From Heterotrichella gracilis (taxonomy: Eukaryota > Sar > Xanthophyceae > Tribonematales > Xanthonemataceae): a DNA stretch of 50,063 nt. The notes under the pieces are model-generated. The model did not search any database. It saw only the letters and a program-made list of their open reading frames with translations, and was not told the DNA's origin. Shown piece by piece: positions 89 through 46,258 of the stretch (positions are counted from its first letter, which is position 1; each line of letters starts with the position of its first letter). Position numbers and translations under genes: made by a program. The stretch spans positions 1 through 50,063 of the forward strand of contig JAULBX010026286.1 of the NCBI GenBank assembly GCA_032358255.1, in the 5' to 3' direction.

Positions 89-3032
89 GGGTGAAAAGCC
101 TGTTGAAGACCCGCAGCCTTAAGGGGTTGAAAGAATCGATGAAATCGGGGATGGGGGGGAGCGGGCGACTGCAGGGGGTGAGCCTTAGTGCTAAAGAGGT
201 AGGCGGAGGGGGTGGGGGTGGAGGGGTCGCATGGAGTGGTTAAGTGTGTTAAGTAGTTGTTGTAAACACAACACCAGTTTCTATTCGTTTTGTGACCATG
301 TTGTGACGTCTTTCTTTCTTATCTCATATAATCTGATCCAATGTAATCTACCTAACAGGATTCCTGTGGGTGGGCAACGGATTGTCATAGAAGAGTGGAG
401 TAAGCGAATGTAATTTCTGATATTATTCCTGCTTTTTTTAGAAATATACAATGGAAAAAACATTCCTGCGTGTAGGAGGAGATTGCCCGGCTGACCAAGA
501 GCGACAGGCACCCCCACAGCACCCCACCCCAGGCCGCCAGCTCAGGAGCCAACATAGGATCAAGCCCAGGACCCCTTGCAGGGCTGCCAGAGGACCAAGG
601 GGGAGAAAATGCTGCCAAGGAAACAGGGGAGGTCAAGGGGGCGGCAACGGGGGCGGTCAATGTGGTGTCACCGTTCGGTGGAATTTCCTCCCCAGCGGCG
701 GGGGGTGATGTTCCTCCCCTTGGTGGTGTTGGGGGTGTGGGGGGTGGCGATGCAGGGGAGGTGGCACCAGCAGCAGCGGCAGCGGTGGTGGTTAAGGTGG
801 TGTCTCCGTTCGGAGGTGGTGGTGGTGGGGTGGGTAGTGGTGGGACAGTAACCAGCCCATTTGGTGGGCCACCACCACCACCACCACCACCACCACCAAA
901 ACCAAATTCAGTGGTGTCCCCATTTGGTGGCTCTTCATCACCACCATCACCACCAGTACCAGCAGCACCACCACCACCATCATCACCACCACCACCACCG
1001 CCGCCGGTGGTATCCCCATTTGGTGGATCTTCATCACCACCACCACCACTACCATCACCAGCCTCCCCATTCGGTGTCCCCTCCCCCCCTCCACCACCAC
1101 CACCAATACCAGCAGCAGCCTCCCCATTCGGGGGTGGTGCCTCCCCATCACCCTCGCCCCTGCCCCCACCACCCCCTCCCGCACCCACCCCGCACCCCAC
1201 CACCAGCGATGCTGCCCTGACACCCACCCACAGCGATTTCAGCAGCGAGGGGGTATCAAAAAAAAGCGAAAAGAGAAGGGCGCCGGTATTTGGGTCCCGG
1301 GGACGCAAATCTGGGATGCTGTCTGGGATGTCGAAGAAGATGATGGCCCTAGGGGGGTCCATCAGGGGGGGATCCATGAAGGTTAAGAGTTCAGTTGAGG
1401 GGACGATGGAGGGGCCGGAAGGTGGGTGTTGAATGGAAGTCTCCCCTTTGGAAAAACCTATGCACCGGTGAAAACCCTTTGTGGACATGGGGAAACCCTG
1501 TGCAACCCTACAGCAGGGTCTCTGAGTAGCTATCTACCTGCTCCCCCCCAACCCTGACGCTGACCCTAAACACTGTTGCCGAAAACCCTATAGGGATGAG
1601 CCGGCGCTCGCGCCAGCCCTACGCTAACCCTGAACCCCAATGCAACTATAAAGCTGACCCTAAACCCTGTTGCCAAAAACCCTACAGGGATGAGCCGGCG
1701 CTCTCGCCAGCCCAGCAGCGTGTCCCGAGTGCAGTTGGATGGCGGTATGGAGATAACCCGGGATGATGTGGTGGGGTTCGACTTGCTTGGTTCAGAGCAT
1801 TCCAGGGTAAGTGAAATAGTTGGTGGGCTTTGATGTTAATGCAAATGTGATTGGGTGTGCGGAGTGAAGGTATCTTGAGGGGATCAAGCAATCCAAAGAC
1901 CTTCCCAGGTTAACCTTGCCTTGATAGGCCAGACCCTAGGCTAGGGTTTCCGACTAACCCTATCCACCGACCCCACAGGCCCTTCTGAAGACCGCCAAAC
2001 AGAAAGCCACCAAGCTGGCGGCATACGAGCGGCTGTTCAGTTCAGGGGGGATGGACCCCGCTACCACCTCCACCCGGGGTCAGGGGCTGATGCCCGCGAC
2101 CTTCAAGGGGGGGAAGGAGGGCGGGGGCGGAGGGAGGGTGGGGGCCAATCGCTTCATGCAACCTTCTGGATCGGTGAGTGGAGGGTGTGGTGGTGGGTGG
2201 TGGCGGGTGGAGGGATGGTGGTGGGACGTGGGGGTATTCTGAGGTACCAGTATGTGGCGGTTTGACAGGCTGCGTCATGCAATGCAGCTACTGTGGTGGC
2301 GTGCTGGGTGGTGGGGTGGGTGGCACTAGGTAGGGTTGATGAGTGAGGTGTGAGGTGGTGGTGGGAGGGCGGGAAATGTGGTGCATACAACCCTCTTCTT
2401 GACAACATGTATAGAAAGGCACAGAACAAACAACCCAGCACCAGACACCTCCCTCCCCTACCAGTATTCTCCGGGTAAATTGTGTGTTGACTGCAAGATC
2501 TTTCCTCCCACTTTCCCAGGTATTTGAGCGCATGGATCGCAACATCTCCGACATCCTTGAGAGCCAGACAGTGGTCGAGCAGCTGTGCGAAAACAGGATT
2601 GCGTCACTCGAGCGCCTGCTGGCATTCGAGGTGGCATTCTACCACATGGCCCTCCCGGTGGCCTCCGCATGGTGCGCAAACCCTAGGACACCCCAAACCC
2701 TACTCCAGGGTCCCTATCCGTGGCTATCGCATGGTGTGCAAAGAGTCCCAAGTCCCACACATTGCAACCCTGACCTCCCTCCGCTTGGTCGCACCCCCTA
2801 GAATCATCCCTAAGCCCCACTGGCCGATGCACATGTTGCCAGGGGCCGCATTGCCTCTTGCATTCGTGGCAAAGAGGGTGTATGGTATGCTTTGAGTGGG
2901 TCCTTAATCCGCACGGCAACATGTTGGATATCTCTATGCCCCTCCCCTTGCAGGCCGCTGAATTTCGATGTGAGCCGCAGCCAGAGCGGGCTGAGGATTG
3001 CAACCACAGCAGCGCCCGTGTCGGGACACTAA
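89..3032 (+). CDS. Proline-rich SPFGG-repeat protein, 5' end missing
   Basis: I do not recognise the family. Exons that join in phase: 89-177, 476-1421, 1688-1806, 1979-2173, 2520-2671 and 2954-3032 (TAA). The first exon is basic (Lys/Arg-rich) and stays open to the left, so the start lies outside the window or in the poly-G. The long second exon begins EEIARLTK and then encodes seven SPFG(G/V) motifs, most as VVSPFGG or ASPFGG, separated by polyproline and polyglycine runs. Its end is basic and serine-rich (KSEKRRAP, KSGMLSGMSKK). Exons 4-5 encode amphipathic helix-like sequence (ALLKTAKQKATKLAAYERLF; VFERMDRNISDILESQ) and the last exon ends PVSGH. A scaffold or cytoskeleton-binding role is possible from composition only. 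Several alternative donors near 1421 were tested; only the one used here joins the 1688 exon in frame and leads in phase into 1979. Confidence 0.6.
868..1110 (+). repeat. ACC/CCA trinucleotide microsatellite inside coding sequence
   Basis: Runs of (CCA)n interrupted by SPFGG-encoding segments make up most of this stretch. In the coding frame they read as polyproline; in the other two plus frames they read as polyhistidine or polythreonine-like sequence, which explains several spurious overlapping open frames. Length variation between alleles is likely. Confidence 0.85.
1558..1620 (+). repeat. Ghost copy of the start of exon 1688-1806
   Basis: This intronic segment repeats 1649-1713, including the intron end with CCCTA(T/C)AG and the exon head GGATGAGCCGGCGCTC. 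The true exon follows about 91 bp downstream. A matching tail ghost of exon 2520-2671 (GCATGGTG.GCAAA) lies at about 2720-2752. Confidence 0.75.
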
Positions 3033-5194: not shown

Positions 5195-8100
5195 ATGGCA
5201 TGCACGCATCAACACTTACCTTTCTCTGACCTCGCCCATCTTCCCCACCCACCCACAGCCACGATGCTGGGGGCCCGCACCACCGCAGCCATAGGCGCCA
5301 GCCCCCACTCCGCCACCAGCCCCCACCACCACCACCAGCGAAGCCAAGCCCCCACCCGGCACCATGCCCTGGAGGGTACCCGCACACGCAGGCAACCCCC
5401 CACCCTCGGCAGCATCCTGCTCAGCGGTTCACTCATCAACTCCATCCCCCTCGCCTACACACACACGCAGGCCTCAAAGGTGAGGGCCACTGCTGGATAG
5501 GTAGTGCACCTTGACAGATTTGTAACCACATAACTAGGGTTGGGACACTTTGGAAAATGCTAAGCCCTAAACCCCGAATCATTTAGGCATGATTCTGGTT
5601 CAAAAACTCCCTGGGTATCGCCATCTTCCTGGCCTACATACACATATGGGAGGCACGTCAGTATTGTGCGTTGAATTCCACCCCTCATAAGTATCAGGTG
5701 TACTAAATGGATACCTCCCCCCTCCCCTTTGCAGTCTGACCAAGTCCCCAGCTCCCTGCTTCAGCGCGTGGCCTACCAGGGGGTTCCGGGTGCATACAGC
5801 GAGGGGGCAGCGGGCAAGGCATGCCCTGACTGGGAGCTGGTGCCATGCGCTCAGTTCGAGGTGCGGGAAAAACCCGGGCAGAACCCTAGCTTGAGGAATG
5901 TTCAGCTAGGTGGGGCTGCTGAGGCCGCTGTGCTCCCAAAACCCTAACCATGACGGCTGAAACCCTAAACTCGACCATCAAAACCCTAGCCATGGCGGGC
6001 ACAAACCCACCGCAAACACTTGTACCTTTGGTTGCTTACCAGGGTGCTTAGCCAGTGGGCGGCTGAGCGCGTGGTGCTTCTTAAACCCTAGCTATGGCCA
6101 TCATAACCCTAATGCAAAACCCTTGCCTTGCAGTCTGCTTTCCAGGTGCTTAGCCAGAGGGCTGCTGAGCGCGCAGTGCTGCCCATCAAGACCTCACTTG
6201 CGGGGTCCGTTTATGAGCAATAAACCCTAGGCCTACACCCTTTATCGCAGGTGCTCAGCCAATAAGCCGGGAAACGAGCTGTACCGGTTATCACACTAAA
6301 ATTTAAACCCCTAAAGCCTCAAACCATTGCCCCGCAGGTTGCTTTCCAGGTGCTTAGCCAGTGGGCGGCTGAGCGCGCGGTGCTTCCCATTGAGAACTCG
6401 CTGGGTGGGTCGATCCACGCGGTGTATGACCTGCTGCTGCGCTACCGCATGCACATAGTGGGGGAGGTAAGCGACATGGGAAGGAGGGGGGGAGAAGTGG
6501 GGGAATGGGGTATTCACAAGCGCCGTTTGGGGTTGAATGTGAAAGCGGAGGAAGGGGTGGGTGTGGTGGTGGTGATTATGGTGGTGGTGGGTGGATGGGT
6601 TTATCCAAGCTGTGCATGACCTGCTGCTGCGCTGCCGCATGCACATAGTGGGGGAGGTAAGCGACATGGATGTGGGGAACGGGGAAGGAATATAGGGTGG
6701 AGGAAGGAGGGACGATATGGGGTGTGAGGAGGGGAGGAGAGTGGGGGGTTGTGTGTGTGTAGTGGTGGATGGTGGGTCCATCCATGCTGTTTATGACCTG
6801 CTGCTGCGCTACCGCGTGCACATAGTAGGGGAGGTAAGCGATGGTTGTAAGGAATTGGAGGGGGTGTGGGGTGTAGGATGGGATGATGTGGGATGCGAGG
6901 AGAGTGGGGGAGGTGGCGGGGTGGGTCGGTCCATGCGGTGAATGCCCTGCTGCTGCGCATGCACATCGTAGGGGAGAAAAGGAATGGTTTGAGGGAAGGT
7001 GGGGGGTATGAACATGCATCTTTTGGGGTTGAATGTGAAGTAGAGGAAGGGGTGTGCGATGGCGGTGGGTGGTGGGTGTCGTGGCGGTGGGCGGGTGGGG
7101 TCATGCATGTGGTGTATGACCTGCTGCTGCATGTGCTGGGCGTGCACATTGTGGGCAGGTGTGGGGTGTGAAAGTGGGGATTGCTATGTTATTGAGGGGA
7201 GGGCAGGTATGCCCGAACAAAGTTGCAGTGGGGAGGGGTTATTGTGTATGGCTGGTTTCTGGGTACCCTACCTCCCATGCGTTATATCCCTAAGCGCTAA
7301 ATCCCAAAACCCGCCCCCCGCAGGTGTATTATGAGGTGAACCACTGCCTGTTGGCCCTGCCAGGCACCCAGAAGAGCGACATCACGCGCGTGCTCAGCCA
7401 TCCACAAGCACTGGCACAGGTATGGTAGGGGTGGTGGTGGAAGTGGTGGTAGTGGGGGAGGTGTATTGATGTCATTTTGTCAAGGGTGACATTGCGCGCC
7501 TGCAAGGACTAGTAATAAAATAGATGGCTTTTTTTTTTTCAAACGGTCATGCATTCAGCGGAGAAAAGGGCTATTATCGCCTGTGGACCAAAATTTACTT
7601 CCTGCAGGTGGACACGTATGTGCGTGAGAAGCTGCCAGGGGTGGTACGAGAGGCGGTGGATGACACGGCGGGAGCAGCCAAGATCATTGCTGAGAACAAC
7701 TGGACGTGAGTACCCTAAGCGAGGGTTTGTAAATGGTATTGGGTGCTCCTACAGGCAGGGCATGTCGTGACGGGGCAGGGTGGATGCGGGCTCGTTGTCT
7801 TAGCATTTGTTGAGTACCTAAGGGTGGTAGTTAGGGTCTGATGGTGGATGACATGGCGGGAGGGGCCAAGATGGTGGCGGAGGTCAAGTGGACGTGAGTA
7901 CCCTAAGCTAGGGTTGTAAAAAGTATGGTGTTTGTTTGTATTGGTAAGCAACAACTTAGGGTAACTGAAGTTGGAGTCAGGGTAGAGTTGGGGTTTGATT
8001 CTAACGCACGACCCATCCCTGCCAAAACCTACCGAAACCCTACCGAATGCCTCCCCAAAAGAATGACGGCCAGCAAGGTGTGCGATCTGAAAGCGACTGA

Positions 8101-9359
8101 AACCCTGCCAAACCCATATCGCAACCCTGCCAAAATCGTACCGAATTGTCTTCCACCCTGCAGGAATGCAAGTTGCGGCGGCCATCCGGCAAGCGGGGGA
8201 GCTGCACGGTTTGCAACCCACCCAAACCCTCCTAAAACCCTACCAATACCCTACCAAATCCCTGCCACAACCAGCTCAAACCCCTTCCCCTGCAGGAACG
8301 CGGCAGCGGTGGCCAGCCGGCGAGCGGGTGAGCTGTACGGCCTCGACATCCTAGAGGAGGGTATTCAGGACATGGCGGACAACGTGACTCGCTTTTTGGT
8401 GCTTTCCCGGGATCCCCTGGTGACCACGGGGGGTAGCGCGGCGCAGTACAAGACATCGGTGGTGTTCTCGCTCAAGTAAGGGGTGAAGGGTGTGAGGGTC
8501 TGCATGCAACTTCAAGGCTTAAAACAACACGCAGTAATACCCTCCCCTGTGCACGGGAACACTGACCAGCATCCTCCTAAACCCCAATGCTCGACAACCC
8601 TGAAACCCCTCCCATGTCGTAGGCACGGCCCTGAGCGTGTTTGCGCTGCGGGGAATCAACCTCACCAAGGTTCAGTCGCGACCGCTTCGCACCCAGACAC
8701 CCTCGTCTAGGCTTTCAAATTTCGCCTTTGAACCCCCAAATCCTACGACCCTCAAATTTTACCCTAAAAATGTGAGTTCCCGCTTCCGCAGGGAGGGCCC
8801 CGGCCAGCTGTTCAAGGCCCTGAGCGTGTTTGCCCTGCGGGAAATCAACCTCACCAAGATTGAGTCGCGGCCGCTGCGCACCGATCCCTTGCTGCCTGCT
8901 ACCCTACCCAACGGCAATGGCAATGGCGGGGGCCACAAGCAGTTCAACTACCTGTTCTACATCGACTGCGTGGGCAGCCTGGCTGAACCCGAGGTGCAGA
9001 ACGCGCTGCGCCACCTGCAGGTGCGAATGAGAAAACCTAGGGAACACCCTAGGGTGCGAGCGGGGTACAGCCTGGAAATGCGAAGTGTAGGGTTGCTGGG
9101 GTGAAAAGTTAGGAAACTGGAAAAACAAACCCCAAGGGAAATGGGCTTGGGCATTTTTTTTTATAGAGCACAACGTTGTTTTTTTTATAAAGCACAAAGT
9201 ACTTCCTGTTCTACATCAACCATGCAAACCCTAAACCCTTTTTCAAACCCTACGCCCCGGTTCCATACCCTAAATCCCCCCCCCCACTGTCCCGGCCTTT
9301 AGGAGATCGCGCCCTTCCTGCGTGTGCTGGGCTCCTACCCAGCGGCTATGGACAGCTGA
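5195..9359 (+). CDS. ADT: Arogenate/prephenate dehydratase, plastid type
   Basis: Converts arogenate (or prephenate) to phenylalanine (or phenylpyruvate) by decarboxylation and dehydration. Exons 5195-5479, 5735-5860, 6338-6466, 7324-7419, 7608-7705, 8296-8475, 8792-9020 and 9303-9359 join in phase to 399 aa, near the usual plant length. The start ATG has a GCCATGG context; the next in-frame ATG at 5264 is an alternative. Residues 1-95 are rich in His, Ser, Thr and Arg, consistent with a plastid transit peptide. The catalytic domain runs from [13 protein letters not shown] through [19 protein letters not shown] and NHCLLALPG to DNVTRF (catalytic Thr about 276). The C-terminal ACT domain has [10 protein letters not shown] and NLTKIESRP (about 306-332), the phenylalanine-binding regulatory signature, and ends FLRVLGSYP. 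Whether arogenate or prephenate is preferred cannot be read here. Its introns carry many ghost copies of exon edges. Confidence 0.95.
6040..6295 (+). repeat. Three ghost copies of the head of dehydratase exon 3
   Basis: At about 6041-6090, 6133-6215 and 6248-6290 the intron repeats GGTGCTTAGCCAGTGGGCGG-like sequence, often with the preceding CAG acceptor. The second copy continues to an equivalent of [10 protein letters not shown] and then breaks. The true exon starts at 6338. None stays open in a form that could replace it. Confidence 0.85.
6596..7165 (+). repeat. Four ghost copies of the tail of dehydratase exon 3
   Basis: At about 6596-6662, 6773-6838, 6925-6978 and 7100-7160 the intron repeats the exon end encoding [19 protein letters not shown] followed by GTAAGC or a degraded donor. 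The first two still have an intact donor; the last two are shorter or mutated ([17 protein letters not shown]). Between them lie G-rich spacers repeating GGGGAATG/GTGGTGG-type sequence, so the duplicated unit included the start of the intron. Confidence 0.9.
7838..7920 (+). repeat. Ghost copy of the tail of dehydratase exon 5
   Basis: GGTGGATGACATGGCGGGAG onward repeats the end of the exon encoding [10 protein letters not shown], with its donor and the following intron start GTGAGTACCCTAAGC(T/G)AGGG. It lies about 190 bp downstream of the true exon end at 7705. Confidence 0.85.
8155..8225 (+). repeat. Ghost copy of the head of dehydratase exon 6
   Basis: CCTGCAGGAATGCAAGTTGC begins a decayed copy of the exon head encoding [16 protein letters not shown], here reading approximately [14 protein letters not shown]. 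It includes the acceptor and lies about 130 bp upstream of the true exon at 8296. Confidence 0.8.
8618..8700 (+). repeat. Ghost copy of the first part of dehydratase exon 7
   Basis: This segment reads [20 protein letters not shown], a slightly mutated version of the ACT-domain [20 protein letters not shown], and lies upstream of the true exon at 8792. It keeps an open frame over this stretch, so homology search would hit it as an apparent duplicate ACT segment. Confidence 0.85.
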
Positions 9360-10494
9360 GGGGGGGGCTCAGGGGCCGCACGCCCAAGGTCAGGACACAG
9401 AAAGGGAGCAAGGCTACTCATGAGGGGACGTGCGGCGCAGCAAGCCAATGATAGTGCACACCCTTCAGGGGTTTTACGTTTTTCACTGCCCAAGGCGCCT
9501 GCAAATATGCTCCAGGGTCTTGCTAGCTAGCTCTGCACATCTCTGGCTTGCACTGTGGGATCATCAACCTTGGCAATTTTTGCAGCTGTCTATGTGAGTA
9601 CTGTGGACTAGTCGATTCGCAAGCACCTGAGAATTGCATATGCTATTCAGCCTGAAACTGCACTGCAGCTGGTTTCGTTTCACCCGAGCGTTGAACATCT
9701 GCCACTGTTCCCCCACAGCTTAGGAACGAGGGTTGGGTTGAGCCCTTTAGGGTTCGACGCGCCAGAAGGTGTGTGTCAACCTGCGCCTGTCCTATGTGCT
9801 TGGCTTCTGCCCACCGAGGGGCGCAGTAAAACCCTGTGCTTGTGTCTTAGAGCCTTGTGCCTGCCTTATGAAAGAATAAATGAAGCGCGAACCACTTCAA
9901 GCATGCGGGGCAGGTCCTCAGACCAGGCCATTATCACCCATGGGCACGGCAGCATCATGCACACATGCAACTGGTGCAATATATGGCCTGACAGAAACTG
10001 GCTGTCGGAGCTTCCAGTTCCTCTTTGTAACACGGCATGCTACCAGCCTGGGTGACAAAGCTTTTGCAAAAATGTATCAGCAGTAGGGCGCATGTTTTCT
10101 CCCCGTTAAGTTTTGTACCTCTTCCCCTGCTGGCATGAGTAACGCAGTTTCGGATGCAGGGGTACCGCTTGTTTTGTGCCCCGCAAAATTCTCTACTAAC
10201 GAATGATCGCACGCCACCTGGTGCTCCACGAGACCGATTGATTAGTAGGCCGTCGTGTCGATCGCTGGGCTCAAGACGCACACTCGCTCCTGGCTTTACG
10301 CATGCCCCCAACGGGCACTTGCATGCATGCATGTGCCCATGCCTTACGCAGGCCTTTAATACACTGGAGCACATAACAGTCCCGTGGTTGCATGGCACCA
10401 TATGTTTTTGGTCGTCATTTCCTTGCCTCGATCACTTCCTGGACCCCATCACAGGGAATTCCTTCGAAGTCTTTGTTTCATTTTAGCAATTGCG
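9360..10494. other. Intergenic, no gene supported
   Basis: The space between the dehydratase stop and the secreted-protein start. Short open frames exist but lack family motifs or splice support. It must contain the 3' end of one gene and the promoter of the next. Confidence 0.6.
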
Positions 10495-13400
10495 ATGGCT
10501 AGCCACACCCTATCGACCCTAGTGCTGGTGCTGCTCGCCAGTGCGAGCGCATCGCATGCCTTCCCTCGGCTCCATGGCCATGGGAGGAGGCTTTTCCAGA
10601 TGGTGGCGCCATCGGTGGACGAGATCCAGCCGGCCCCGGCTTCTATCGGCACGGACGTGCCCCTCACCTACTTCGGCACCGCACCCAGCACCGTGGTCAA
10701 GGAGCTCATCGGGCCCTACCAGCTGATGAAGTCAGGTAAATTGTTTTTTCAAAAACTGCCTGGCTCTAGCTAGTGCCGAGGTCGCGGCGTAGGAGAGGTT
10801 GGGTCACGGCATGTGGGTACCCAATTCCGTTTGGCAAGTGCCTCTTGGACTGGTGCACGTATCATACGTATCGGTATTTCGGCACCCAGCACCGTGCAGA
10901 AAGATCCCACTGGCCCATAACAGCTATAATAGCTGATATAACCAGTCGAGCGTTATAGAAAGCCTGGCTCAAGCGCATGATGTCGAGGGTGCCACACAGG
11001 AAAAAAAGTGGGGTTTTGGGGTTGGGGTTGGGGTTGGGGGGTTACTAGTACTAGTACTGGTCGCAGGTATCGCAGGTGTACCCGACCGGATGAACTCTGC
11101 TTTTCCCATGCTCTTAGCTGACTTCCTCCTCCCCCTGTGCAGGCACTGTGGACCTGGCCACCGGCACCATCACCCTCCCCCTGTACATGGGCACCGTCAC
11201 CGTCAACGGCGCCAACCAGACCATGTGGTATGTGGTGACTGACACGTCGGACCAGGTGAGATGGCTGGAGGGCTGTAACGTGTATACTGTATATACTGTC
11301 ACCTTGGTAGACAGGGTTGTGTGGGTTGTATCCTGCATTGCTACAGCTACCCACAAAACCCTACATCCTGTTCATTTTTCCTGTGAAGCCCACCAAAAAC
11401 CTAATGCTGTTCCTTGTCAAATCCACCCAACCAGGCTTGATACCTACTTTCCCATTTCCGCAATCCTGCTGGTGTGCCGTACAGCACAAGCTGTTTGATT
11501 ATGAGCCTTGTTTGCCCCTCTGGTCTGGGGTAACTGTGCCAGACCATGGTGGTGTTGCAACTAGTATACTACGTAGCAACACATTAGGTGGGTGCATTTG
11601 CAAGGGCTTTCAGCCAGCCAGACCCTAGTGAGCAGTTTATGCCAAGGTTAGCTGCGCTGCCAGGCTGTGGGGTGGGGGCTCTTGCCTACCACCTGGGTAT
11701 GCGGCTGCCCATTGCATAACCTCCTCAATGGTGCCTGGCAGAAAAGCCCTTGCCAACTCACCCCCCGGGGCCTACTCATATGTTAGTTGTGAGCCTCTCT
11801 TTCTGTTATGCATGTCCCATCAACCCCCCCCACCCCCCTCATGGACAGCAGCCCTGGCCATCAACTACAGCGCCAAGCTTAAGCTGGCCTACTCCATAGC
11901 ACCTACTTCTGCACCCTTAACCCACACAGGCGCCCTACTTCTGCACCCTAAACCCAAACCCTAAACCCTAAACCCTAATCACTACCCCTCCAGTTTCAGC
12001 CGACACCTCCAACGTTGTGTCCTAACTGTGCCACCCTCTACCCACAGGGCAATGCCGCAGCCCTGGGCATCAACTACAGCGCCAAGCTGGCATACTCCAT
12101 AGTGCCAGGTGGCACCCGTACAGGCGCCCTGGACGCCCAGTCCCGCCTGTACACCACCTCAGGCTGGGTGGACTTCACCCCCGCAAGGAGCGTTTTCCCT
12201 GGGGAGGCACCCAACTTCTTCCCCCCTGCCAACTTCTCCATTCCCTCCATGGGTAGGTGAACGTGCACTGCATGATGGTGTAATATTTATTGGGGGGCGT
12301 TGTATTATTTTTTAAATTGGCCCTGTCAAATGCATGTACATCACGTTAAAATGGTGGACTATTTCTCCCCCGCTAGGAGTGTTTTTCGGGGGAGAACACC
12401 CAACTTCTCCCCCCCTGCCAACTTCTCCATTCCATCAATGGGTAGGTGGCAGCCCATGTGTTGAAGGTAGAATCATGACAGGAAAAGGTGTGTGCTCAAA
12501 TTTGTGTATAAGAATGCACCATGATGGGATGTGGATGCTGTAGATGATCGTGTGCCATGCTCAACTTGGCACCCTCCCTAAACCACCCCTGCCCACCTGA
12601 CACCCTAAACCCTAAACCCTAAACCCTAAACCCAAGATCCTTCCCATTCCCTTACGCATAAATGGCCATGCACCGCACCATGTTCTACCCATGAATCCCC
12701 TCCCCAGGCATGGACGGCTACACCCCCCTTGTGACCATTGGGGGCAACGTGTACAATGCACCCATCATTGCCTTGACCCTCAACACCAGCCACCTTGCAC
12801 CCTACTGCTTTGAACCAAATTCATGGCTCCACACCAAAGTAGTAGCATGATGCATCGCCATGAACCCTTGACTCCCCTGCCCACCCGCTTCTCTCATTTC
12901 CTCCCCTTTTTTCCTTTCAGGCATGGACGGCTACACCCCCCTTGTCACCATCGGCGGCAACGTGTACAACGCACCCATCATCGCTGGTAACCTCAACGCA
13001 AGCGACCTTGCGCCCTATTGCAACGGGGTCATGGCAGCAGATGCCGAGGAGGCCTATACCATGTTCCATGGGAAGGTCAAGGCAATCTGCCTCAATGCGG
13101 ATGGCACCGGTGGTACCGTGACCCTGGATCTGTCAGCTGGGTTCAGCTTTGGCAAGCCAGTGCTGTACTTGAGGTGGGCGGGGGTGGGGACATGGGAGGG
13201 TATTACCCTAGGTTAGGGTTTGGAGGTTAGGGTTTGGGGAGGGCAGCATACCCCATGTTCCATGGGAATGTCGAGGTGAGGCGCTGAGGCACTGGGGGAA
13301 CAGTCTCTCTGGACCTTTCTGCTTGCTTCAGCTTTGGCAGGGCTGTGCTCTATTCAAGGTGGGGTTGTACCCTGTGCTAGGTTGAGGGTGTGGCTAGGGT

Positions 13401-25520: not shown

Positions 25521-25749
25521 TGTAATCACACGTGTGGTTGCAGGTGGGTGCATCTGTGGTCAGGCGCTAGCAATTTCGCCCTTGATCATAGTTGTACTCA
25601 TATCTTTGGATGTGACTGTGGGTTGTAATCACACGTGTGGTTGCAGATGGGTGCATCTGTGGTCAGGCGCTAGCAATTTCGCCCTTGATCATAGTTGTAC
25701 TCATATTTTTGGATGTGACTGTGGGTTGTAATCACACGTGTGGTTGCAG
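25521..25749 (+). repeat. Tandem ghost copies of exon D head in copy 3
   Basis: Two units of about 100-106 bp, each with GTAATCACACGTGTGGTTGC, CAG and the exon D head ending in an in-frame TAG (GGTCAGGCGCTAGC), precede the true exon at 25750. The third unit is the true exon, which has ATGCGC in place of AGGCGC. Confidence 0.9.
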
Positions 25750-32780: not shown

Positions 32781-33509
32781 TTAGAAGGAACCCCACACAC
32801 AAAGAAAAAAAGAGGTGCTGACCCAACACAGTCTGTGCACAGCGCACCCCGTGGCTGAAAGGGTGTAAATGGTCCACCCTTGTACACATGGCGCCGCACG
32901 CAATGGACACCTGGCGCTGCGTCCAGATGCCCATCGCCCACCAAAACCGCTGCCCCACACCCAACGCGCAGCCGCATCAAAATCACCCAAAAGCGCTGCC
33001 GCCCAAAAGCACAGGGCATCACAATCGTGCGCTGCCATGCACACAGCACCCCATGTGGCCGACAAACCCAGCAACCCCAGCCTGCCTGCGCAGAGCAACC
33101 CCAGCCCAGCGGCGATCAGCAGCCTCTCATCAGGGTCTGTGTCCATCCTCAACACCCACTCCAGCCCTGCTTGGAACCCCCGGCTGGTCCTCTGCGCCAG
33201 TGCGCTGAGCCAGGGGGGCGGCTGGCGTTGGTGGGATGCCGGGCCGGGTGTTCCCGGGGAGTGGATTTGGAAGAACTGCGCCCTGCTGCGGCGCTCGATG
33301 TGCAGGGCGAACAGCATCGGCAGGGTGTTGCAGAGGGCAAAGAGGAAGGTGCGGCTGGCCGCGCACTGCTGCAGGGGGGAGAGCTGGAGCGCGCAGGCAG
33401 GGAGGGGACCAGGGAGCACATCGGGCCCTGGGACAAAGGGCGTTATTGTTAATTGATATTGACAATATGTGGTGATAATTGATTACTTCATAAGAAAGTT
33501 CTTTTGGGG

Positions 33510-33550
33510 AAAGAAAGCACAGCGGGCCCTGGGACAAAGGGCGTGATTAG
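33510..33550 (-). repeat. Ghost copy of exon F head in copy 5
   Basis: The plus-strand sequence CGGGCCCTGGGACAAAGGGC at about 33519 repeats that at 33423, covering the acceptor and first bases of exon F. It is upstream in the direction of transcription. Confidence 0.8.
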
Positions 33551-33814
33551 CTATTCAATTCAATTATTTGCCGTATGGTACCAAAGTTACAGCGTGGAAG
33601 AGAAAAATAACATACACGAATGAACCGGAAAATGAACGTATTGAAGTCTGGACATGGGTAGTCGTCAGACAAGTAAAGAGTGTCAAGTCTGGGTTTTGAT
33701 GTATGCATATTTCCTGCTTTTAAATGCCTCCAAGCACTTGCGCTTTCAAGACTGCTGCAAAGCGTTGCGGGACAAGGATTTAGGTACCAGGACTTTAGGG
33801 TTTTCATTGTGATT

Positions 33815-33870
33815 GCCTTTATTGCGCCGAAGAGCTGACCTGTCACCGCCGCTGCGCTGGGCTCAACATA
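33815..33870 (-). repeat. Ghost copy of exon E tail in copy 5
   Basis: On the minus strand it reads AAAVTGQLFGAIK followed by GCAATC, a decayed copy of AVTAQLFGAIK with its GCAAG donor. It is downstream of the true segment in transcription. Confidence 0.82.
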
Positions 33871-34224: not shown

Positions 34225-34565
34225 TTACAACCATGGGGGTCATGAAGAGGCGCAGGAACAGGGAGATGCCCACCTGCAATGGCACAGAATATACTACATA
34301 TGGGGTGGAAAAAGACCTGCATATTATTATTGTTACGATTACAATCATAATCGGCAATTGCAACCGTGAATGTGATTACATTGTGAGAGGCGCGCTAGTA
34401 GTTGCAACCTGCAATCGCAACCATGGGGGTCATGAAGGGCACAGGACCAGGCAGACGCCCCAATGCACCCATACCAAATCAGGACTATGGGATTATACTT
34501 GTGATGACTCGATTGCAACCATAATCACGGGGGTCATGAAGAGGCGCGGGACATGCCGATAGCTA
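34225..34565 (-). repeat. Three ghost copies of exon D head in copy 5
   Basis: ATGGGGGTCATGAAG on the plus strand (minus-strand CTTCATGACCCCCAT) occurs near 34232, 34422 and 34528 with progressively less of the surrounding exon. All lie upstream of the true D segment in transcription. Confidence 0.85.
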
Positions 34566-34649
34566 AAATCACACCAGTAATTGGTTGTGACGGTTGCATC
34601 TGCAATTCACAACTTACAACTTAAATCCCAGTGGCAATCATGATACCCA

Positions 34650-34730
34650 AAATCCTTTACTTGCGACCACATACCCTTGGCACACTCCCCCTTGCCTCCG
34701 GTGTAGTAGGCCACCCCGCGCCAAAACCGA
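34650..34730 (-). repeat. Ghost copy of exon C tail in copy 5
   Basis: The minus strand reads VAYYTGGKGECAKGMWSQ followed by GTAAAG, a mutated copy of the C exon end. It is downstream of the true exon C (34806-34961). Confidence 0.85.
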
Positions 34731-37025: not shown

Positions 37026-39856
37026 ATGGAAAAACGACTGCATGCATATGGCCATGCGATGCTGCGTCGTTGGCTGGGTGCGCTCGCTCGGTACCAGCCC
37101 TTGGCTTTCACGGACGCCCAGTTAGAAGACCAATACCTCCGATGGCGCTGCTCGCACTGGGTGACCTACACTGGGGAAGTCCTTGGCGGCATTGTCACGG
37201 TGCTGTGTCTGTGGAGGCTGCACTTTGACAGTGCAAAACCAGTGCCACGCCAGCCAGACCCAGCGTGGGTATCAGGTGAGAATAGTGCGTGCGTGCCTTT
37301 CCTTTTCTAGATCATCCTGGTTGTAAAGGCTAGATCTTGGGGGGTAAGCCCTGTGGGGAGAGTTGGGAGTCGGCAACTGGCACGAGTCTGCAGGCTATAC
37401 AGAATAGGGCCCCCAGTTGCACGAACCCACCATCTGGAGATGTGAACCATGGGTGCAACTGTGCTGTAGTGACACGATACGAGGCAGCAAACAATGCCCT
37501 AGGGTTTTATCACCGCGAGCTACCCCATGCAAGGCATAGCACCCTGTAACCCTGACCCTATACCACAAACCCTAGACCCTAGACCCTAGACCAACGAGGC
37601 CCCTGGTTGCTGAAGCGGGGCTTGTGCCTTGTGTGCAGGACTGGTGGCGCTGCTGTTAAGGGTTCAGGGAATGGCTCGTTTAGGGTTAAGGGTTTAGGGC
37701 TTCCCAAGTGTAGGATTGAGGCTTGTGTTGTGCGTTGTGCGCAGGAGTGGAGGCGCTGCTGATGCTGACCAGCTTCATAGGGTTCCTCTGCAGGCAGGTG
37801 AGCCCACTGACCCTAAACCCAAAACCCTACTGACCCTGTCAACCCTAAACCTTTAGGTGCTGGTGATAAGCTGCATGGGGTTTCCTCTGTAGGCTGGTGA
37901 GGGGGGCATTGCGCACTGACCCTAAACCCTCACCTTGACCCGTGCTGCTGTCGACCAGCTTCATAGGGTGTCGAAATCTTTAAATATACTTGGAAAAGAC
38001 ACTGCTCTGTGACCCTAAATGTGCACCCCAAACCCCGAACACCATGTCCTACAGCACTTTGTCCCTCCGTCACCTGAAGCTGACCCTTGCACGCCAGCTA
38101 CTAGAAACCGAAAAAAATATCCGTCAATTCAGTTATTTAGTCATCTGGGATGTTTTGCAGAGTATCTTCTTGTTATCGCGGCTGCACCGAGGCCCTACCT
38201 CAGGGTTAACCGCAGGGATAGGCTGCCACTGGTCATCCCCCGTCCCCCCTTGCAGGTGCACCGGGGCGCCTTCTGGCCCTACCTGAGGGACTGGCTGCTG
38301 CTGGTCAGCCTGGTGGCGGTATTCATCATCACCCCAAAGTATGCGGTGGCATACTACACCAGCGCCAAGGGGGGTTGCGATAGGCGCATATGGTCGCAGG
38401 TAAATTACAATTGCTGTTGTCAATATCATATGGCCCATGAGTGAGGGTCGCATGTACAGCCACTGGCATCAAGTGTAGGAAGAAAACAATAGGAACTTTT
38501 ATGGGCATCATGGCTTTGACGACTATGTGATTGTGATTTGGTGATCACTTCTACCTAATACTCGGATTACCCCTGCGCCATCATTTCCATGTGATCTTAG
38601 GTTGTGATCTTGATTGGTTCCACCAACAATAATTGCTCATAAATGCAATGGCGGCTCCAGGTTGGCATGTCCATCGTGCTGGGCCTCATCATGACCCCCA
38701 TCGTTGTAATCGTAGGCCGCAATCGGCGCCTTGATCGTATCTAACTGCTATCGTGGCGCGCAGGTTGGCATCTCCATCGTGCTGCGCCTCTTCATGACGC
38801 CCATGGTGGGTCTGATGCAGCTGCAGCAGTGGGTGTGCACCCTCGCGTGGAACCTGATTGTCTACATATTCTGGGCCCGAATGGACTTGGATCAAGGCCT
38901 GCACGGGCAGTGCAGGCAACTGCTTACCCAGGAGCCATGCACAGCTGCGGTGACGGCACAGCTCTTTGGCGCAATACAGGCAAGGTTCAGTAAACCCTAA
39001 ACCCTGCGCCCTGAAACCTAAACCCTAAAACCTGAGCCTCTTGGAAGTTGCTTACCCAGGAGTCATGCACAATCGCAATGCTGTTGGAAGCAGTTCAGGC
39101 AAGGGCCATACATTTGAAACCTGACTTCTGGTCATAAAACCCTGAATCCGGACCCCTGCTACCCTGTAGCCGCACTGTAAATTGCGGGGAAACCAAATGC
39201 ACAAAATCACAACAATATAATCCTTAATTGTTGAACCGTGAAACATTGCCTTCCCTGCAAATTTGGAAGCCCTACCGCACCTGCCTCTTTGCAAGGAGCA
39301 TACTGTTAACCCTTTGCCGCTCCTGGCGGGTATACCTCCCTTGCATGTGGCTAAGACACTAACTATATACCCCTTGCTGCAGGCGCCGCTGTGCTCCCTT
39401 GTCCCCTCCCCTGCCTGCGCGCTCCAGCTGTCCCCCCTGGGGCAGTGCGTGGCCAGCCGCGCCGCCCTTTTCGCACTCAGCAACATCGTGTCGGTGCTGT
39501 TGTCGCTGCAAATCGAGCGCCGCAGCAGGGCGCATTTTTGCCAAATCCACCGCCCGGGATCCCCGGCGGCAGCTGGCCAATTCCAAAAGCCACCATGGCT
39601 CAGTGCGCTGTCCCAGAGGACCAGCCGGGGATTCAAAACAGGGCTGGAGTGGTTGCTGAGGATGGATACCCATCCCGATGAAAGGCGCTTGATCGCCACT
39701 GGGCTGGGGTTGTATTGCATGGGGTGGGTGGGGCTGCTGGGGCTCTCGGCCGCATGGCGCACGCTGTGCGCTGCGACCCAGCAACTATGTATCCGCGGCC
39801 CTTGGGGTGCGCCAGCAAGTTTCTTGCCAGGAGCACTTCTGTCACCCCACTTGTGA
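37026..39856 (+). CDS. Multi-pass membrane protein family, copy 6
   Basis: Exons 37026-37275 (A), 37745-37797 (B), 38256-38399 (C), 38764-38979 (D and E fused) and 39383-39856 (F) join in phase to 378 aa. It starts MEKRLHAYGHAMLRRWLGAL. No intron lies between D and E; the intron after E begins GCAAGG. Signatures are intact: ARYQPLAFTDAQLED, VHRGAFWPYLRDWLLL, QLQQWVCTLAWNLIVYIFWA, QIERRSRAHF, LEWLLRMDTHPDERRL. The C-terminus runs about 20 residues past the usual end (QQLCIRGPWGAPASFLPG), because the normal stop just after QQL is missing. Ghosts flank its exons (B near 37638 and 37850; C near 38180; D near 38659; E near 39050). Function unknown. Confidence 0.78.
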
Positions 39857-41843: not shown

Positions 41844-44800
41844 ATGGGGCGTGAGTATCGAAGTATCAAATTGTCAGTGGAACATGGCTTGGGTATCAAT
41901 TTTCAGGGCATCAACAAGTCAGCTGCGCACGTGCACGCTACGGGAATTGCCATCGTGCTGCTTGTGTCTGTAGCTGCAGGTAAGGATATGTGCACTGTGT
42001 GCACCGTCTTCCTCGTTTACACCCGCTGTGGTGGCGGTGGTTGTGGTTGTGATGGTGGTGGTGGTGGTGGTGGGCCTACCTATGGCTTGCTGGGGGATTG
42101 CCTTGCTGGCCTTGGGGCAAGGTGTTGCGGAGGACATGAAAGTATTTAAAAATGCAGGCAAACACAAGGCCTTTGGGCGGTCAACCTGATGTTATCACGT
42201 TTTGAACTGCTGATGTTGTCACATTATGGATTGCTGAGAGTTGGACACAGGTTATGGGGTATGCGGGGTTGTCATATCCCTTGCATTGTGTGCTTCAAGG
42301 CTGGCGCTGACTATTATTCTGGCTACTTGTCACTTGTCGTTCAACATTGTGAACTTGTAAGCCGAACACTGCAAGTTTGAGTCCAAGTTAAGGTGTAGAA
42401 GGTAATATTAAAGAGACAACCATTTGCAGAACATCACCCTGGCCCCGAGGGGATCACCACTGCCTTGCTTGCAGTAGCCAAACTGTAGACCACCAGCTGC
42501 AGGACAGCATGCCCCTCTAGAGCACACTACAAGCTCATACTGCGCGTCCCCGCCCGCAGTTGCCATCGCTGCAGAGCCCAGTAGCTTGAGCATCCACCGC
42601 CACCACCGGGGTGGCAAGATGATGATCGTGAGTGCGCTGCCCCCCGAGGCCTGCGACACCAACCTAGGGGGCTACATCTACACGCTGGCCATGAAGAACA
42701 AGGAGGACTACGCCAGGTGGGTGCTGGGTCCAGGGCTGAGGTAGCTGTGGGCCAGTCTAGGCAAGGGTAATAAGATAATAATAGTCCTATTATTATCTTA
42801 TTACCCTTGATCTAGGTCAGGGCGCGGTCGTTGCCTAAATCCTAGTCTATTAAGCCCCCAGCCTACACCGGGAAGGACCATACCAGGTGGGTACTGGGCT
42901 CAAGCTGGCTAAGTCTGTGCCTAGCCATCAATTCAGGACATAACCCCCCAGCAAGGTGGGTGGGGGGTAATGTCCACGCCCAAGGTGCATGGCGCGCAAT
43001 ATAGACGTGTGAGGATGGGGTTAGGGTTTAGGCTAGGGCTGCAACTACCCTAGCTGTCAGGGAGCAGGGTGTATGTCTGCTTGGTCTGTAACCCTTATCT
43101 ATAAACCCTACTCCAGGGGACTACGCCGGGTACACCACACAACACAGCACGACACCCACCACAGGTATTTTTGCAAATGCAGACACCACCCCCCACCCCC
43201 CACCACACCACACCCACCCACCTGCAGGTACCATGGGTACGACTTTTGGTATACTATTGGTCTGGCCAACAATACTTGTGGTGAGCGTTGGAACAAGGTC
43301 AACCTCATGCGCATCGTTGCAAACAAGGAGGAGTACCCTTGGCTCATGTGGACAGACTACGACACGTTGTTCCTGAACATGGCGCAGGTAGGGAAGTTGA
43401 ACCCTACACCTTTAGTCCATATAGGGAGGAGTGCCCTTGGTTTTTTGAACATACTACAACATCGTGTTCCTCAATATGCCACAGGTAGTAGGGAAATGCG
43501 GGGAACAAGTTGCATCACAGGTCTGACACGCTCCTTCTTCAAGACTTCCCTCCCCGTCGCATATTTGAGGCTGGCCTCTTGCTCTGTTGTATTATTGTCT
43601 GCTATGGAAGAAATGTCTTTATTCACTTCAATTCTTTTTGTTCGTCCAATGTCACACCCTTTGATGACATGAAGGGCAAAGGACCTGACCAACAACGTTG
43701 GCATGGCTCAAGATTCATGGGTTATCTCCGGGAATCATATTATTGGGGGGGTGATTTCATATTGATCGAGCTTTGTAAAACGTAATGACTTTGATTTAAT
43801 GTTTGGCAAAGCTTATACTGGAACCCACAAGACTGGTGATTGTGTATCGATATGTTATCCGTTCAAATGCCCTAATATGTGAGCATCGCATATCGCTTTA
43901 TATTACTAATTTTATTGTTTTTGTACCTGTTGTGGTGCAGGCCATACCCTTTGAGGACTTTGAGGGCAAGGACCTGATCATTTGGGGGGATAAGAAAAAA
44001 TTTTATGGGACAAATGACCCACTGAAAGGTGGGGAACTGCTGCGTTGGGAATTCAGGCTTCCCCTAAACCCTCATCCGGCATCTTAGTTTGTTATTATAG
44101 TCACGCGTTTTGGCTGTATGTCAAGGCTAGTCATTAATCTGCTTCAGGGTGGGAGGTTGTTGCATCGAGCGGTGTCTATAACCCCCTTGTCTCTACACCC
44201 TCAGTCTTGCATCGACCAGTTTGGAGATTTGGAGAATGCCAAATCATCGCCTTGGTTGTAAGGCTTCTATCATGAACCTTCCTTCACCGTCCCTCCGGCA
44301 AATCTATTGTCTTACACCCTAGTGCATATCTATGGTGGTAGGTTATTGTAAAGCCAACATCCGGAACCCTTATGCAATACCCTTGCTGCAAACTATACAA
44401 ATCCAACATCCTATACCCTACAGCACTGCCCTCCCGTCTAGCACCCAATCCAACCAACTGAACATGAAGGAAGTTTGCAAGCATACTAATTGGAAACGGC
44501 ATAAAAGCTGCAGATGGACTATTTAGGCATCTGAGATTGTGCTAATGTGATGCCAAACCAACTGCCGGCAGTCCTCCGCTGACGACTAGAAGCGTGAGCG
44601 TAATGAGCGTCCGGTTACCCATGCACGTTAAACACGCAATGAGGGTTGTGCAAATGGGGGTTGCACATACCACTTGGTATGTATCATGTGGACCATTGCA
44701 CCTTAGATCCTACATCCCTCAAACCCTAACATGTAGTTGGGTGTGCTGTGACAAATTGCGTCCTAAACCTCAAACTCTCTTGAACCCTAACCCGAACATG

Positions 44801-46258
44801 TACCTTGGCGTGTGCAGGCTGCAACGGCGGCGTGTGGATCGTTCGCAACACCCTCTGGGCACGCAACCTGCTCACCCAGTGGGCGTCCTACTGCTTCAAT
44901 TGGCAAACCAACGATGTGCTGCACGCGGTGAGGATTTAGACTTATGGTCAAGGGTGGCTGCACGAGGCAGCTTCCAGATATTAAATTGAACTGCTAGGGT
45001 TAAGAGTTAGGGGTAACAAGAGCTAGGGAGGGCACATGGCAAGTTGGTGGTGGCACGGAGATCTTGAGGAGAGGGAATATGGCCACGACGGAAGTGGTGT
45101 TTGGGTAGTTTGGGTGGTTGGGATTCCTAGGATACTAATGGCCACTATGGCCCTATAGGGCTGGCTGGGTAATGGGCATCCTCTAAATAGTAACCTTGGA
45201 AATGGAACAAGCAGTGTGCGGACAAACGTGGCAAGATGTGGTACACCCCGCTGCCAATCTTGTTGCTGGCCAACAATTCAGGCAATTCAACAATATAGTC
45301 ACATGCGCCCCAGCAGATCGGCATGGTCCGATCGCCCTCGCTCACCTGGGTTCTTCTGCGGGTGGCACAACACCCATTTATGTCCTGCAGACTATACTTG
45401 TATGGGCCATCCCTGTCCATGTGTAGTCTCAATCCCTAGGGTATATACATAATTCAGGGCATGCAAACAAGTGGTGCATTGAATGGTTGCCCTCTCCCCC
45501 CAACCTTGACCCTTGCGCACTCCTAGGACGGAGATGAAGAAGGATCTAAGCCAAGGGCCTAACCCGTACGGGTATGACCGATGAGATGTTGCGCTAAGAA
45601 CCACCATCCAAGATCCTTACTTTCTTGGGCGTTGCAACAAGCGTTGCGCGGAGCCGCCGCCTCTTAACATTGCCTCCCCCCTCCTTACCCCCCATTGTTG
45701 CCCCCACAGGAGATGAAAAAGGACTTGGGCGACATGTTCAACCCCCGCGGGAATGACCAGCAGGGCCTGGTGCACCTCATTGGCCACCACCCGGAGCGGA
45801 TACCAGGCTTCAAGGAAAAGATCATGATCCATGGGTGGGGATCCAAAGGCAAAGCCAACAACCATTGGGCTATGCAGGCCGTGTGGCCCGTGGTACCGGT
45901 TGCAGCAGGTAGGGTATCACAAGCCCCCAAGACAAACTTTGCTGGCTCATTTGTCAAAAATCTAGAGCTTGCATCGGAACAATGACCTCATCATTCTTTG
46001 GTTGGTGCAGACTTTGGCCTAAAGAACCTCATCTACCCTCCTGACACCAGCTACGGTATCACTGCGCTCATTGTGCACTTTGCGGGCTGCAAATTCTATG
46101 GTCCCAAGCATGCAAAATTCAACCTGACTGAGTGCACACACGACTTCCTCGCCACATACGCGCACGCCTACCGGTTGGCGCTTAACAAGCAGGGATTTGG
46201 GGAGGTGATGGATGACTTTGATTGGCGGGCGCCACTGCTGACCTTGGAGATGCATTGA
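41844..46258 (+). CDS. GT34-like (GMA12/MNN10) glycosyltransferase
   Basis: Expected to transfer a hexose or pentose from a nucleotide sugar inside the Golgi. Exons 41844-41979, 42560-42716, 43228-43387, 43941-44028, 44818-44927, 45710-45908 and 46011-46258 join in phase to 365 aa. It has type II topology: a short N-terminal tail and one membrane anchor at about 32-48 (TGIAIVLLVSVAAVAI). The fold markers of the family appear in order: YARYHGYDFWY, ERWNKVNLMR, WLMWTDYDTLFLN with the metal-binding DxD (about 141-143), DLIIWGD, CNGGVWIVRNTLWARNLL, NDQQGLVHLI and a C-terminal VHFAGCKFYG (His about 306). The acceptor sugar cannot be inferred. Ghost copies of exon edges sit in introns 2, 3 and 5, and one palindromic element is in intron 2. 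Confidence 0.86.
42762..42809. mobile_element. Palindromic mini-element in intron 2 of the GT34-like gene
   Basis: Two perfect 23-bp arms (CAAGGGTAATAAGATAATAA and onward) around a TC centre, 48 bp in all, nearly identical to the element at 28632. Flanking 7-mers GTCTAGG (42755-42761) and ATCTAGG (42810-42816) match in 6 of 7 bases, as expected of an ageing target-site duplication. Confidence 0.8.
42862..43140 (+). repeat. Ghost copies of the tail of GT34-like exon 2
   Basis: GGAAGGACCATACCAGGTGG at about 42870 and GGGGACTACGCCGGGTAC at about 43116 are decayed copies of the exon end AAGGAGGACTACGCCAG and its GTGGGT donor; the first is followed by the same GGGCTCAAGC..GG-type intron start. 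Both are downstream of the true exon. Confidence 0.72.
43405..43500 (+). repeat. Ghost copy of the tail of GT34-like exon 3
   Basis: From about 43427 the sequence GGAGTGCCCTTGG...GTTCCTCAATATG repeats the exon end encoding EEYPWLMWTDYDTLFLNMAQ and its GTAGGG donor, with indels. Confidence 0.8.
43645..43702 (+). repeat. Ghost copy of the head of GT34-like exon 4
   Basis: ACACCCTTTGATGACATGAA and following bases match the exon 4 head ATACCCTTTGAGGACTTTGA...AAGGACCTGA. It is upstream of the true exon at 43941. Confidence 0.75.
45520..45592 (+). repeat. Ghost copy of the head of GT34-like exon 6
   Basis: GGAGATGAAGAAGGATCTAA starts a decayed copy of the exon head encoding EMKKDLGDMFNPRGND (here EMKKDLSQGPNPYGYD, then TGA). 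It is upstream of the true exon at 45710. Confidence 0.85.

Follow-up and report, generated by a model that had tools for sequence, protein, structure and literature searches.

Intron growth is usually ascribed to transposons, and tandem minisatellite and satellite arrays show concerted evolution. Effects of tandem duplication on exon-intron structure have been traced in few cases (PMC4974935; this and the other papers are cited from the portions available). In the potato RdRp gene, tandem duplication across an intron-exon boundary made a new intron, whose splicing is supported by RNA reads (Ma, Lan and Niu 2016, PMC4974935). In the AGGT model (Hellsten et al. 2011, as described in PMC4974935), duplication of an exon-internal AGGT piece gives a new intron. 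In mouse cells, small tandem duplications also arise where a break leaves protruding ends, for instance when the two strands are nicked close to each other (PMC5730883, which cites Schiml 2016, Vaughn and Bennetzen 2014 and studies in Arabidopsis and human), and fill-in by CST-guided Pol alpha-primase yields tandem duplication at breaks (PMC8355091). In a Drosophila survey small duplications are frequent and many are tandem, with duplication-derived sites below expectation in introns (PMC6380325). The present analysis concerns a 50,063-bp contig of Heterotrichella gracilis (JAULBX010026286.1), taken whole and called the window. In five of its loci the introns hold decayed direct copies, or ghosts, of the gene's own exon edges. 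Head ghosts, with the acceptor side, lie upstream of the real exon and tail ghosts, with the donor side, lie downstream. Frequent local direct tandem duplication, combined with junction geometry and selection, very probably explains this arrangement.

Polarity of exon-edge copies

Each exon with 60 nt on either side served as a BLAST query (E <= 1e-3) on the gene it belongs to, in which the modelled exons were masked, and rows with less than 12 nt of exon were excluded in all five loci. The search gives 18 heads upstream, 24 tails downstream, one head downstream and no inverted copy. The observed polarity is thus confirmed. The sequence-only reading had placed heads upstream and tails downstream in these loci, with more than 25 polarised cases and one clear exception; number and place are both borne out, with 42 rows to 1 and the exception, at 22030-22075, falling within the 22018-22075 proposed. 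In a six-copy gene cluster, 29 rows include 12 heads upstream, 10 tails downstream, one head downstream, five internal matches and none inverted; one tail-upstream row was dropped, being a real exon of the adjoining gene copy. The 21 exons of the other four loci give 25 rows: six heads upstream, 14 tails downstream and five internal, none inverted and none on the wrong side.

Among the 24 tails, six rows are weak: five lie at last-exon ends (three at E6, two at SEC8) and one is doubtful (SEC6, distance 960). Two SEC4 tail rows hold just 16 nt of exon each. With the weak tails removed, the splice edges stand at 36 as predicted against 1. The rows are not independent, as some ghosts are common to paralogs or share one array, and the sign test on 42 to 1 (1e-11) is to be read with that in mind. 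Merging paralogs and arrays leaves 18 distinct splice edges as predicted and 1 against. The acceptor AG survives in 15 of the 18 heads, and 18 of the 22 tails still have GT or GC at the donor; in this count the Ssu72 edge, one base off, is scored as lost, three heads are unalignable and one GT-to-GC change is scored as kept. Such polarity follows because, once a junction has been duplicated directly and in tandem, the intact exon is attached to the inner copy alone. What is informative is therefore the underlying mutational process and not the polarity.

The clearest case is exon 6338-6466 (+ strand) of the prephenate dehydratase (PDT) gene, with heads on its upstream side and tails on its downstream side. 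Head ghosts lie at 6010-6080 (spacing 307, 84.5% match) and 6117-6207 (spacing 204, 82.4%). The tail ghosts at 6592-6669 (distance 190, 91.0%) and 6771-6841 (distance 367, 91.5%) keep the donor GT, which is lost in the third at 6916-6981 (distance 516, 79.2%), all on the same strand. The real exon we take by eye to belong to PDT; PF00800 is matched by an exon further along the gene.

The five loci are a proline-rich gene, the dehydratase with its ACT domain (PF00800, E 2.2e-11; PF01842, E 1.2e-7), a secreted protein, the six-copy cluster gene and a GT34-like gene, whose Pfam match scores below the family cut-off. The names 'secreted protein' and 'membrane-protein cluster' are adopted from the earlier reading, and the membrane nature is a label only; two E6 pieces of the cluster gene scanned against Pfam gave no match. 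Exon models of the cluster come from six-way comparison of the paralogs, which fixes the edges of five or six exons per copy. Copies 1, 2, 4 and 6 when spliced each give one open protein, all of a single family. The models of the other four genes come from splice signals read by eye, with Pfam for part of the dehydratase and the sub-threshold GT34 match. In the assembly searched (68.5 Mb in 903 contigs), light-harvesting proteins give 43 exon matches, which indicates a photosynthetic eukaryote; taken together with the telomere-like repeats described below, the sequence would suggest a green alga.

Unit size, decay and genomic occurrence

The same repeats occur outside the window. Of 25 stretches of 10 kb taken from the assembly, three of low G+C (L009, L018 and L022) were removed, leaving a random sample of 22 stretches and 220 kb. 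A diagonal scan finds 151 local direct pairs in this sample and 0 in order-2 shuffles, which excludes chance. By BLAST within 3 kb there are 75 direct and 3 inverted pairs, compared with 37 direct and 7 inverted in the window, where all 7 lie at 1-3 kb among oppositely oriented gene copies. Low-G+C contigs of the same assembly (30 kb) hold 0 direct pairs within 1 kb. Two of the removed stretches, L009 (contig C1) and L022 (contig C180), combine low G+C with 80-86% cover by open reading frames (ORFs) of 200 residues or more and look bacterial, so other organisms' contigs seem to be held in the assembly. By diagonal scan the window is denser, with 76 pairs per 50 kb against 151 per 220 kb. The distribution is patchy, and pairs with spacing 60-420 are absent from 8 of the 22 stretches. 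Contaminant contigs do not seem to be the cause of these empty stretches, which have 0-49% long-ORF cover like the others.

Polarity extends to genes on other contigs. Among 36 candidate coding frames overlapping a repeat, 30 were scanned against Pfam and 12 (8 genes) were used, 8 passing the Pfam cut-off and 4 sharing genes with those that pass; weak or stray matches were set aside. Ghosts are present in 11 of the 12 frames and every direct ghost is on the predicted side, for example in HIR1, Ssu72, pyruvate kinase and PHD. The side was called as the side of the Pfam-matched part that is repeated, not all edges being fixed, and the frames, picked for a nearby repeat, inform polarity and not frequency.

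The nearest-neighbour spacings of 156 pairs show peaks near 103 and 192 bp and a sharp drop past 220 bp. In the classes 90-120, 120-160, 160-220 and 220-420 the random sample has 27, 12, 32 and 4 pairs and the window 12, 9, 14 and 2. Two components fit better than one (Bayesian information criterion 1382.5 against 1392.7), with a valley ratio of 0.60 (bootstrap 0.31-1.03); this fit covers spacings of 50-350 and omits the 22 of 156 nearest pairs at 20-50 bp. Two spacing modes are moderately supported. A sharp lower size limit of 80-94 bp was considered and dropped, as the diagonal scan found shorter pairs that the BLAST self-search had nearly missed (suppression near the main diagonal is suspected). 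The repeat fills the spacing in PHD (149 bp at 152) and in copy 3 E4 of the cluster (104 bp at 103), and many pairs match over a length shorter than their spacing. Of 30 cases tested, 12 show duplication of the intron side of the unit as well (z >= 3). For HIR1a (z 2.4) the intron parts, compared by eye, share words split by indels.

Divergence between ghost and exon is graded from 2 to 35%. In 43 of 44 ghosts (the one more than 30% different being omitted), differences from the exon at codon positions 1, 2 and 3 number 118, 85 and 163 over 819, 825 and 819 sites. These counts are near 1:1:2, which fits a freely drifting ghost together with an exon that changes mainly at third positions. Frame-changing gaps occur in 13 of the 43 ghosts, and 6 in-frame stops are counted. 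Neither codon position nor frame gaps reveal coding constraint on the ghosts, which look to decay like neutral sequence.

Individual ghosts and intron length

In the single-gene loci all ghosts are on the + strand. A head ghost of the proline-rich gene lies at 1549-1619, upstream of exon 1688-1805 (spacing 94, 88.7%). Further along the dehydratase gene, exon 7608-7705 has a tail ghost at 7843-7931 (distance 188, 82.2%) and exon 8296-8475 a head ghost at 8101-8209 (spacing 135, 71.6%). The ACT-domain exon 8792-9020 has a head-side ghost at 8624-8693 that begins 21 nt into the exon (spacing 189, 90%). In the secreted-protein gene, exon 12048-12252 is followed by a tail ghost at 12332-12448 (distance 187, 79.7%), and exon 12921-13173 is flanked by a head ghost at 12705-12808 (spacing 213, 85.6%) and a tail ghost at 13288-13363 (distance 185, 75%). 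Two tail ghosts of exon 14632-14796 lie at 15010-15214, past a 100-N assembly gap at 14862-14961. In the GT34-like gene, exon 43228-43387 has a tail ghost at 43418-43488 (distance 98, 75%) and exon 43941-43987, whose far end is uncertain, a head ghost at 43653-43691 (spacing 290, 82.1%).

Copy 1 of the cluster (16898-20127, - strand) consists of E1 20127-19866, E2 19373-19321, E3 19043-18900, E4 18273-18154, E5 17854-17759 and E6 17320-16898; a search for edge ghosts at E <= 1e-3 found none here. A 31-bp minisatellite of about nine copies (18558-18843) lengthens intron 3 of this copy. Copy 2 (- strand) has a tail ghost of E5 at 21167-21237 with its GC donor kept (distance 97, 90.1%) and head ghosts of E4 at 21923-21980 (spacing 104, 89.8%) and of E3 at 22427-22490 (spacing 192, 78.1%). 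In copy 3 (+ strand) a tail ghost of E2 lies at 24721-24769, its donor GT lost (distance 87, 75.5%). Two head ghosts of E3 (25264-25407), both with AG kept, lie at 24923-25008 (spacing 337, 82.6%) and 25040-25160 (spacing 189, 90.1%). Two head ghosts of copy 3 E4 occupy 25511-25689, where a tandem array at 25520-25793 (unit 103 bp, 2.7 copies, 95% match) reaches into the real exon 25750-25869. Copy 4 (+ strand) has tail ghosts of E3 at 30230-30265 (distance 131) and of E4/E5 at 30858-30906, GC donor kept (distance 104). Copy 5 (- strand) has a head ghost of E6, mostly intron, at 33516-33548 (spacing 101), tail ghosts of E4/E5 at 33813-33863 (distance 120) and of E3 at 34658-34710 (distance 145), and head ghosts of E4 at 34228-34293 and 34418-34459 (spacings 121 and 310). 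In copy 6 (+ strand), E2 has a head ghost at 37611-37655 (spacing 106) and a tail ghost at 37858-37901 (distance 98), E3 has the weakest head ghost, at 38178-38238 (spacing 74, 68.9%), and E4 has a head ghost at 38640-38704 (spacing 102).

The exception is a head ghost of copy 2 E3 (22030-22075, - strand) that lies downstream of E3. It matches the E3 head of copy 1 at 90.9% over 55 nt, a match that takes in 10 nt of upstream intron, and its own E3 at 84.8% over 46 nt. Its counterpart is the internal row 25487-25516 of copy 3 E3, also of the head side and downstream, which matches the copy 1 E3 head at 77% over 53 nt and its own E3 at 83% over 30 nt; for both ghosts copy 1 gives the best score. 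Since copy 3 holds this counterpart, the exception is probably one old event. The simplest reading of the matches suggests that it arose by exchange between paralogs, with copy 1 as partner.

Several other features of the cluster and the contig were observed. A GC donor (CAG or AAG, then GCAAG) stands at E5 or the fused E4/E5 in all six copies, for example at 21268 and 30798, and tail ghosts of these exons keep GC in copies 2, 4 and 5. In copies 3 and 5 the frame of E6 (26720-27126 and 33019-33427) shifts by one base close to a run of C, either an assembly error or a sign of a pseudogene. Relatives of E3 on contigs C106, C632 and C249 (stretches L003, L006 and L008) indicate a gene family wider than the cluster. 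The contig starts with a run of 74 G (1-74). Near its other end, an open frame of 326 residues (48332-49312, + strand) has two homologs by protein search and no Pfam match at E 0.01; by eye it looks fucosyltransferase-like, from a motif.

The sequence-only reading also held that introns grow by repeated junction duplication, and this stands in part. Over 24 cluster introns, length tracks the summed ghost units (permutation p 0.012, with unit lengths partly hand-assigned); with ghost number alone the relation is weaker (rho 0.36, p 0.08). By eye it is clear for intron 2 alone, which measures 277, 210 and 267 nt without ghosts and 453, 585 and 458 nt with them. On the other side, a third of the duplications in gene regions touch no exon. 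Among the 40 nearest pairs of the window, 26 have one copy touching a modelled exon, 13 have none and 1 lies outside gene regions; in 0 of the 40 are both copies within modelled exons. Of the 20,252 intron bases, 2,825 (14%) belong to visible copies, compared with 8% in sequence outside the genes studied. We take the 14% as a lower bound, as older copies will have faded. The process is also patchy, as seen in the 8 of 22 empty stretches and in kinase loci, where 1 of 27 exon matches has ghosts. Pairs touching an exon are in excess (26 of 39 in gene regions against about 47% under random placement, p 0.011); targeting of junctions is not claimed from this, because easier detection of exon-side copies can explain the excess. 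The E4/E5 intron is present in copies 1-3 and absent from copies 4-6. Its gain by duplication was considered and is not supported, as no E4-tail or E5-head ghost is found at E <= 1e-3.

Repeats within coding sequence keep the frame. The proline-rich frame 476-1432, which lies outside the modelled exon set, holds 5 pairs with 5 spacings, and frame 9163-9978 of stretch L011 holds 17 pairs with 16 spacings; all are multiples of 3, as expected if coding sequence tolerates only in-frame duplications, although the values are not independent.

Origin of the copies and comparison with known systems

According to the favoured explanation, segments of roughly 50-220 bp would often be duplicated locally, directly and in tandem in this nuclear genome. 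Duplication over an acceptor would strand the old acceptor and exon head upstream as a ghost, the inner copy being joined to the exon, and duplication over a donor would strand a ghost downstream. Duplications wholly within exons would persist only when the frame is kept. The ghosts would then drift neutrally, and repeated rounds would lengthen the intron. The direct arrangement, the polarity, the neutral-looking decay and the same repeats outside the window are all observed; for the older cases we infer that the copies were adjacent at birth. Junction-spanning tandem duplication, as put forward in the sequence-only reading, explains the geometry, and the neutral look of the ghosts and the duplicated intron side of 12 cases out of 30 agree with it; the polarity is then no separate discovery.

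Several observations weigh against this explanation. In 18 of 30 cases the intron half is at z < 3 while the exon half is 75-95% identical, as in the ACT head and S10a; the low likeness could come from indels, later insertions or another mode of copying, and in these 18 cases the full unit is presumed. Inverted copies also exist: 7 inverted, hairpin-type arm pairs (unmerged and unfiltered) against 66 direct pairs of spacing 60-420 in 80 kb from 8 stretches, two inverted pieces upstream of one S10 peptidase exon and 19 bp inverted at an HIR1 exon. Among 12 kinase loci chosen irrespective of repeats, with 27 exon matches, ghosts overlap the exon at one (two tails, downstream). Flank-only matches at these loci are 4 direct, two of which may be tails past the Pfam match, and 3 inverted, which likewise count against. 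In copy 1, two introns without ghosts are nevertheless long, intron 3 with 626 nt and intron 5 with 438 nt. Finally, the E4 head ghosts of copies 2, 3, 5 and 6 all end at exon position 44-46.

This common end point and the shared location of the ghosts in four copies (units of 102-121 bp) would fit a model in which unequal exchange or gene conversion makes exon-edge arrays evolve together and the ghosts are older than they look. The E4 ghosts of copies 2 and 3 match their own exon type at 86-89% (the two exon heads are identical to each other), whereas exons of copies 2 and 3 match those of copies 4-6 at 55-64%. One old event is therefore insufficient for the E4 ghosts, and either duplications recurred at a single site or the copies were homogenised. 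Homogenisation also agrees with the copy 6 ghost, which is 89% like its own exon against 75-83% for copies 1, 4 and 5, with the 95% match within the copy 3 array and with the exception, which resembles paralog exchange. However, independent duplications after the lineages split would give the same picture, the copy 5 ghost matches the copy 4 exon head (40/45) about as well as its own (39/42), and most ghosts of the other genes are single or in short arrays. We consider such concerted change unlikely as the general explanation, yet it is the strongest of the rivals. Much less probable is that the ghosts are functional parts kept by selection, as alternative or poison exons or as regulatory decoy splice sites. 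The mostly intact splice dinucleotides would fit this, as would the changes classified between HIR1a and its ghost (5 synonymous, 1 non-synonymous) and the greater likeness of some ghosts than of their intron flanks. The dinucleotide retention is biased, however, since only matches extending to the exon edge entered the count; heads have no exon-copied donor and tails no exon-copied acceptor; and the pooled codon-position counts fit drift, with the frame-changing gaps and in-frame stops pointing the same way.

False local duplication in the assembly, through read errors or merged haplotypes, could leave similar traces, and the 100-N gap lies within one tail array while the E6 shifts of copies 3 and 5 are near C runs. 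The graded divergence, the ghosts common to paralogs and the spread over many contigs make such an artefact extremely improbable. We give equally little credence to a mobile element or introner-like insertion that brought exon pieces into introns. Units of about 100-200 bp overlap introner elements in size, but each ghost matches its own adjacent exon, directly and at short distance, and no common foreign sequence was noticed in the units read, no genome-wide search for one having been made.

For the molecular cause of the tandem duplications, fill-in and joining of breaks with two nicks about 100-200 bp apart is the leading candidate, put forward tentatively and at somewhat less than even confidence. 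The 75 direct against 3 inverted pairs agree with it in orientation; adjacency is seen in PHD and copy 3 E4, but many pairs match over less than their spacing. It is conceivable, though rather doubtful, that chromatin or lagging-strand units set the length, in view of the two-peaked spacings and their abrupt drop past 220 bp in random sample and window alike, and that intronic telomere-like repeats mark or draw CST with Pol alpha-primase. If so, breaks would occur at fixed points relative to the nucleosome, and introns would lengthen in steps the size of a nucleosome, which polarised ghosts would record across the genome. TTTAGGG/CCCTAAA-like repeats are present in the window. Repeat spacers hold 4.0 motifs per kb in the random sample, which has 0.95 overall, and 3.5 in the window, where introns hold 76 motifs in 20,252 bp (3.75 per kb); spacers are thus no richer than introns. 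A motif lies near a pair at 0.43 against 0.28 for random placement in the random sample, and at 0.38 against 0.33 in the window (p 0.33). Motif and duplication counts correlate over the 22 random stretches (rho 0.79), which may just reflect intron content. The motifs were not kept as a cause, given the equal density in spacers and introns and the p of 0.33. As separate observations, the first 100 nt of 44 introns hold CCCTAA 21 times and TTAGGG 3 times, the last 100 nt 9 and 12 times. In several copies the 53-nt exon E2 is preceded by TTTAGGG and followed by CCCTAAA (24560-24740 in copy 3), and the two motifs could pair with each other over the exon.

A literature search, largely without subscription journals, showed no genome-scale survey of junction ghosts, duplicated splice sites or intron growth of this kind among the papers listed. 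Dozens of junction duplications of graded age offer a clock and a size spectrum of the process. The ghosts may also serve as naturally occurring decoy splice sites whose distances from the real ones are known, and so allow the spliceosome's choice of the inner site to be tested. For annotation they are a warning, as ghosts can be called exons. The scars are a readable record of introns growing, not a new kind of biology.

The process itself is already known; new are its density, size spectrum and graded record. As in potato RdRp (PMC4974935), the segment behind a head ghost runs from the end of an intron into the start of the exon that follows, and the upstream copy holds exon head and acceptor. 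The potato case, in the portion available, is one recent, spliced event, whereas here many decayed copies of both heads and tails are known from DNA alone. The AGGT model, as outlined there (PMC4974935), likewise changes exon-intron structure by local tandem duplication, but here the unit spans a junction that is already in place and makes the intron beside it longer. Break fill-in, going by the parts of PMC5730883 and PMC8355091 at hand, likewise gives short direct duplications; they are adjacent at birth, as is presumed for the older pairs here. Those came from induced breaks in mouse or human cells with overhangs down to 43 bp, whereas the present spacings exceed this and have two peaks (103 and 192 bp). 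The window shares with Drosophila small, often tandem duplications as a standing mutational input, and differs in that copies are seen in introns, which are depleted in the fly survey in the portion available (PMC6380325), although the measures are not the same. The copy 3 E4 region, a 103-bp array, resembles minisatellite and satellite arrays, and differs from them in that its terminal unit carries the head of a real exon.

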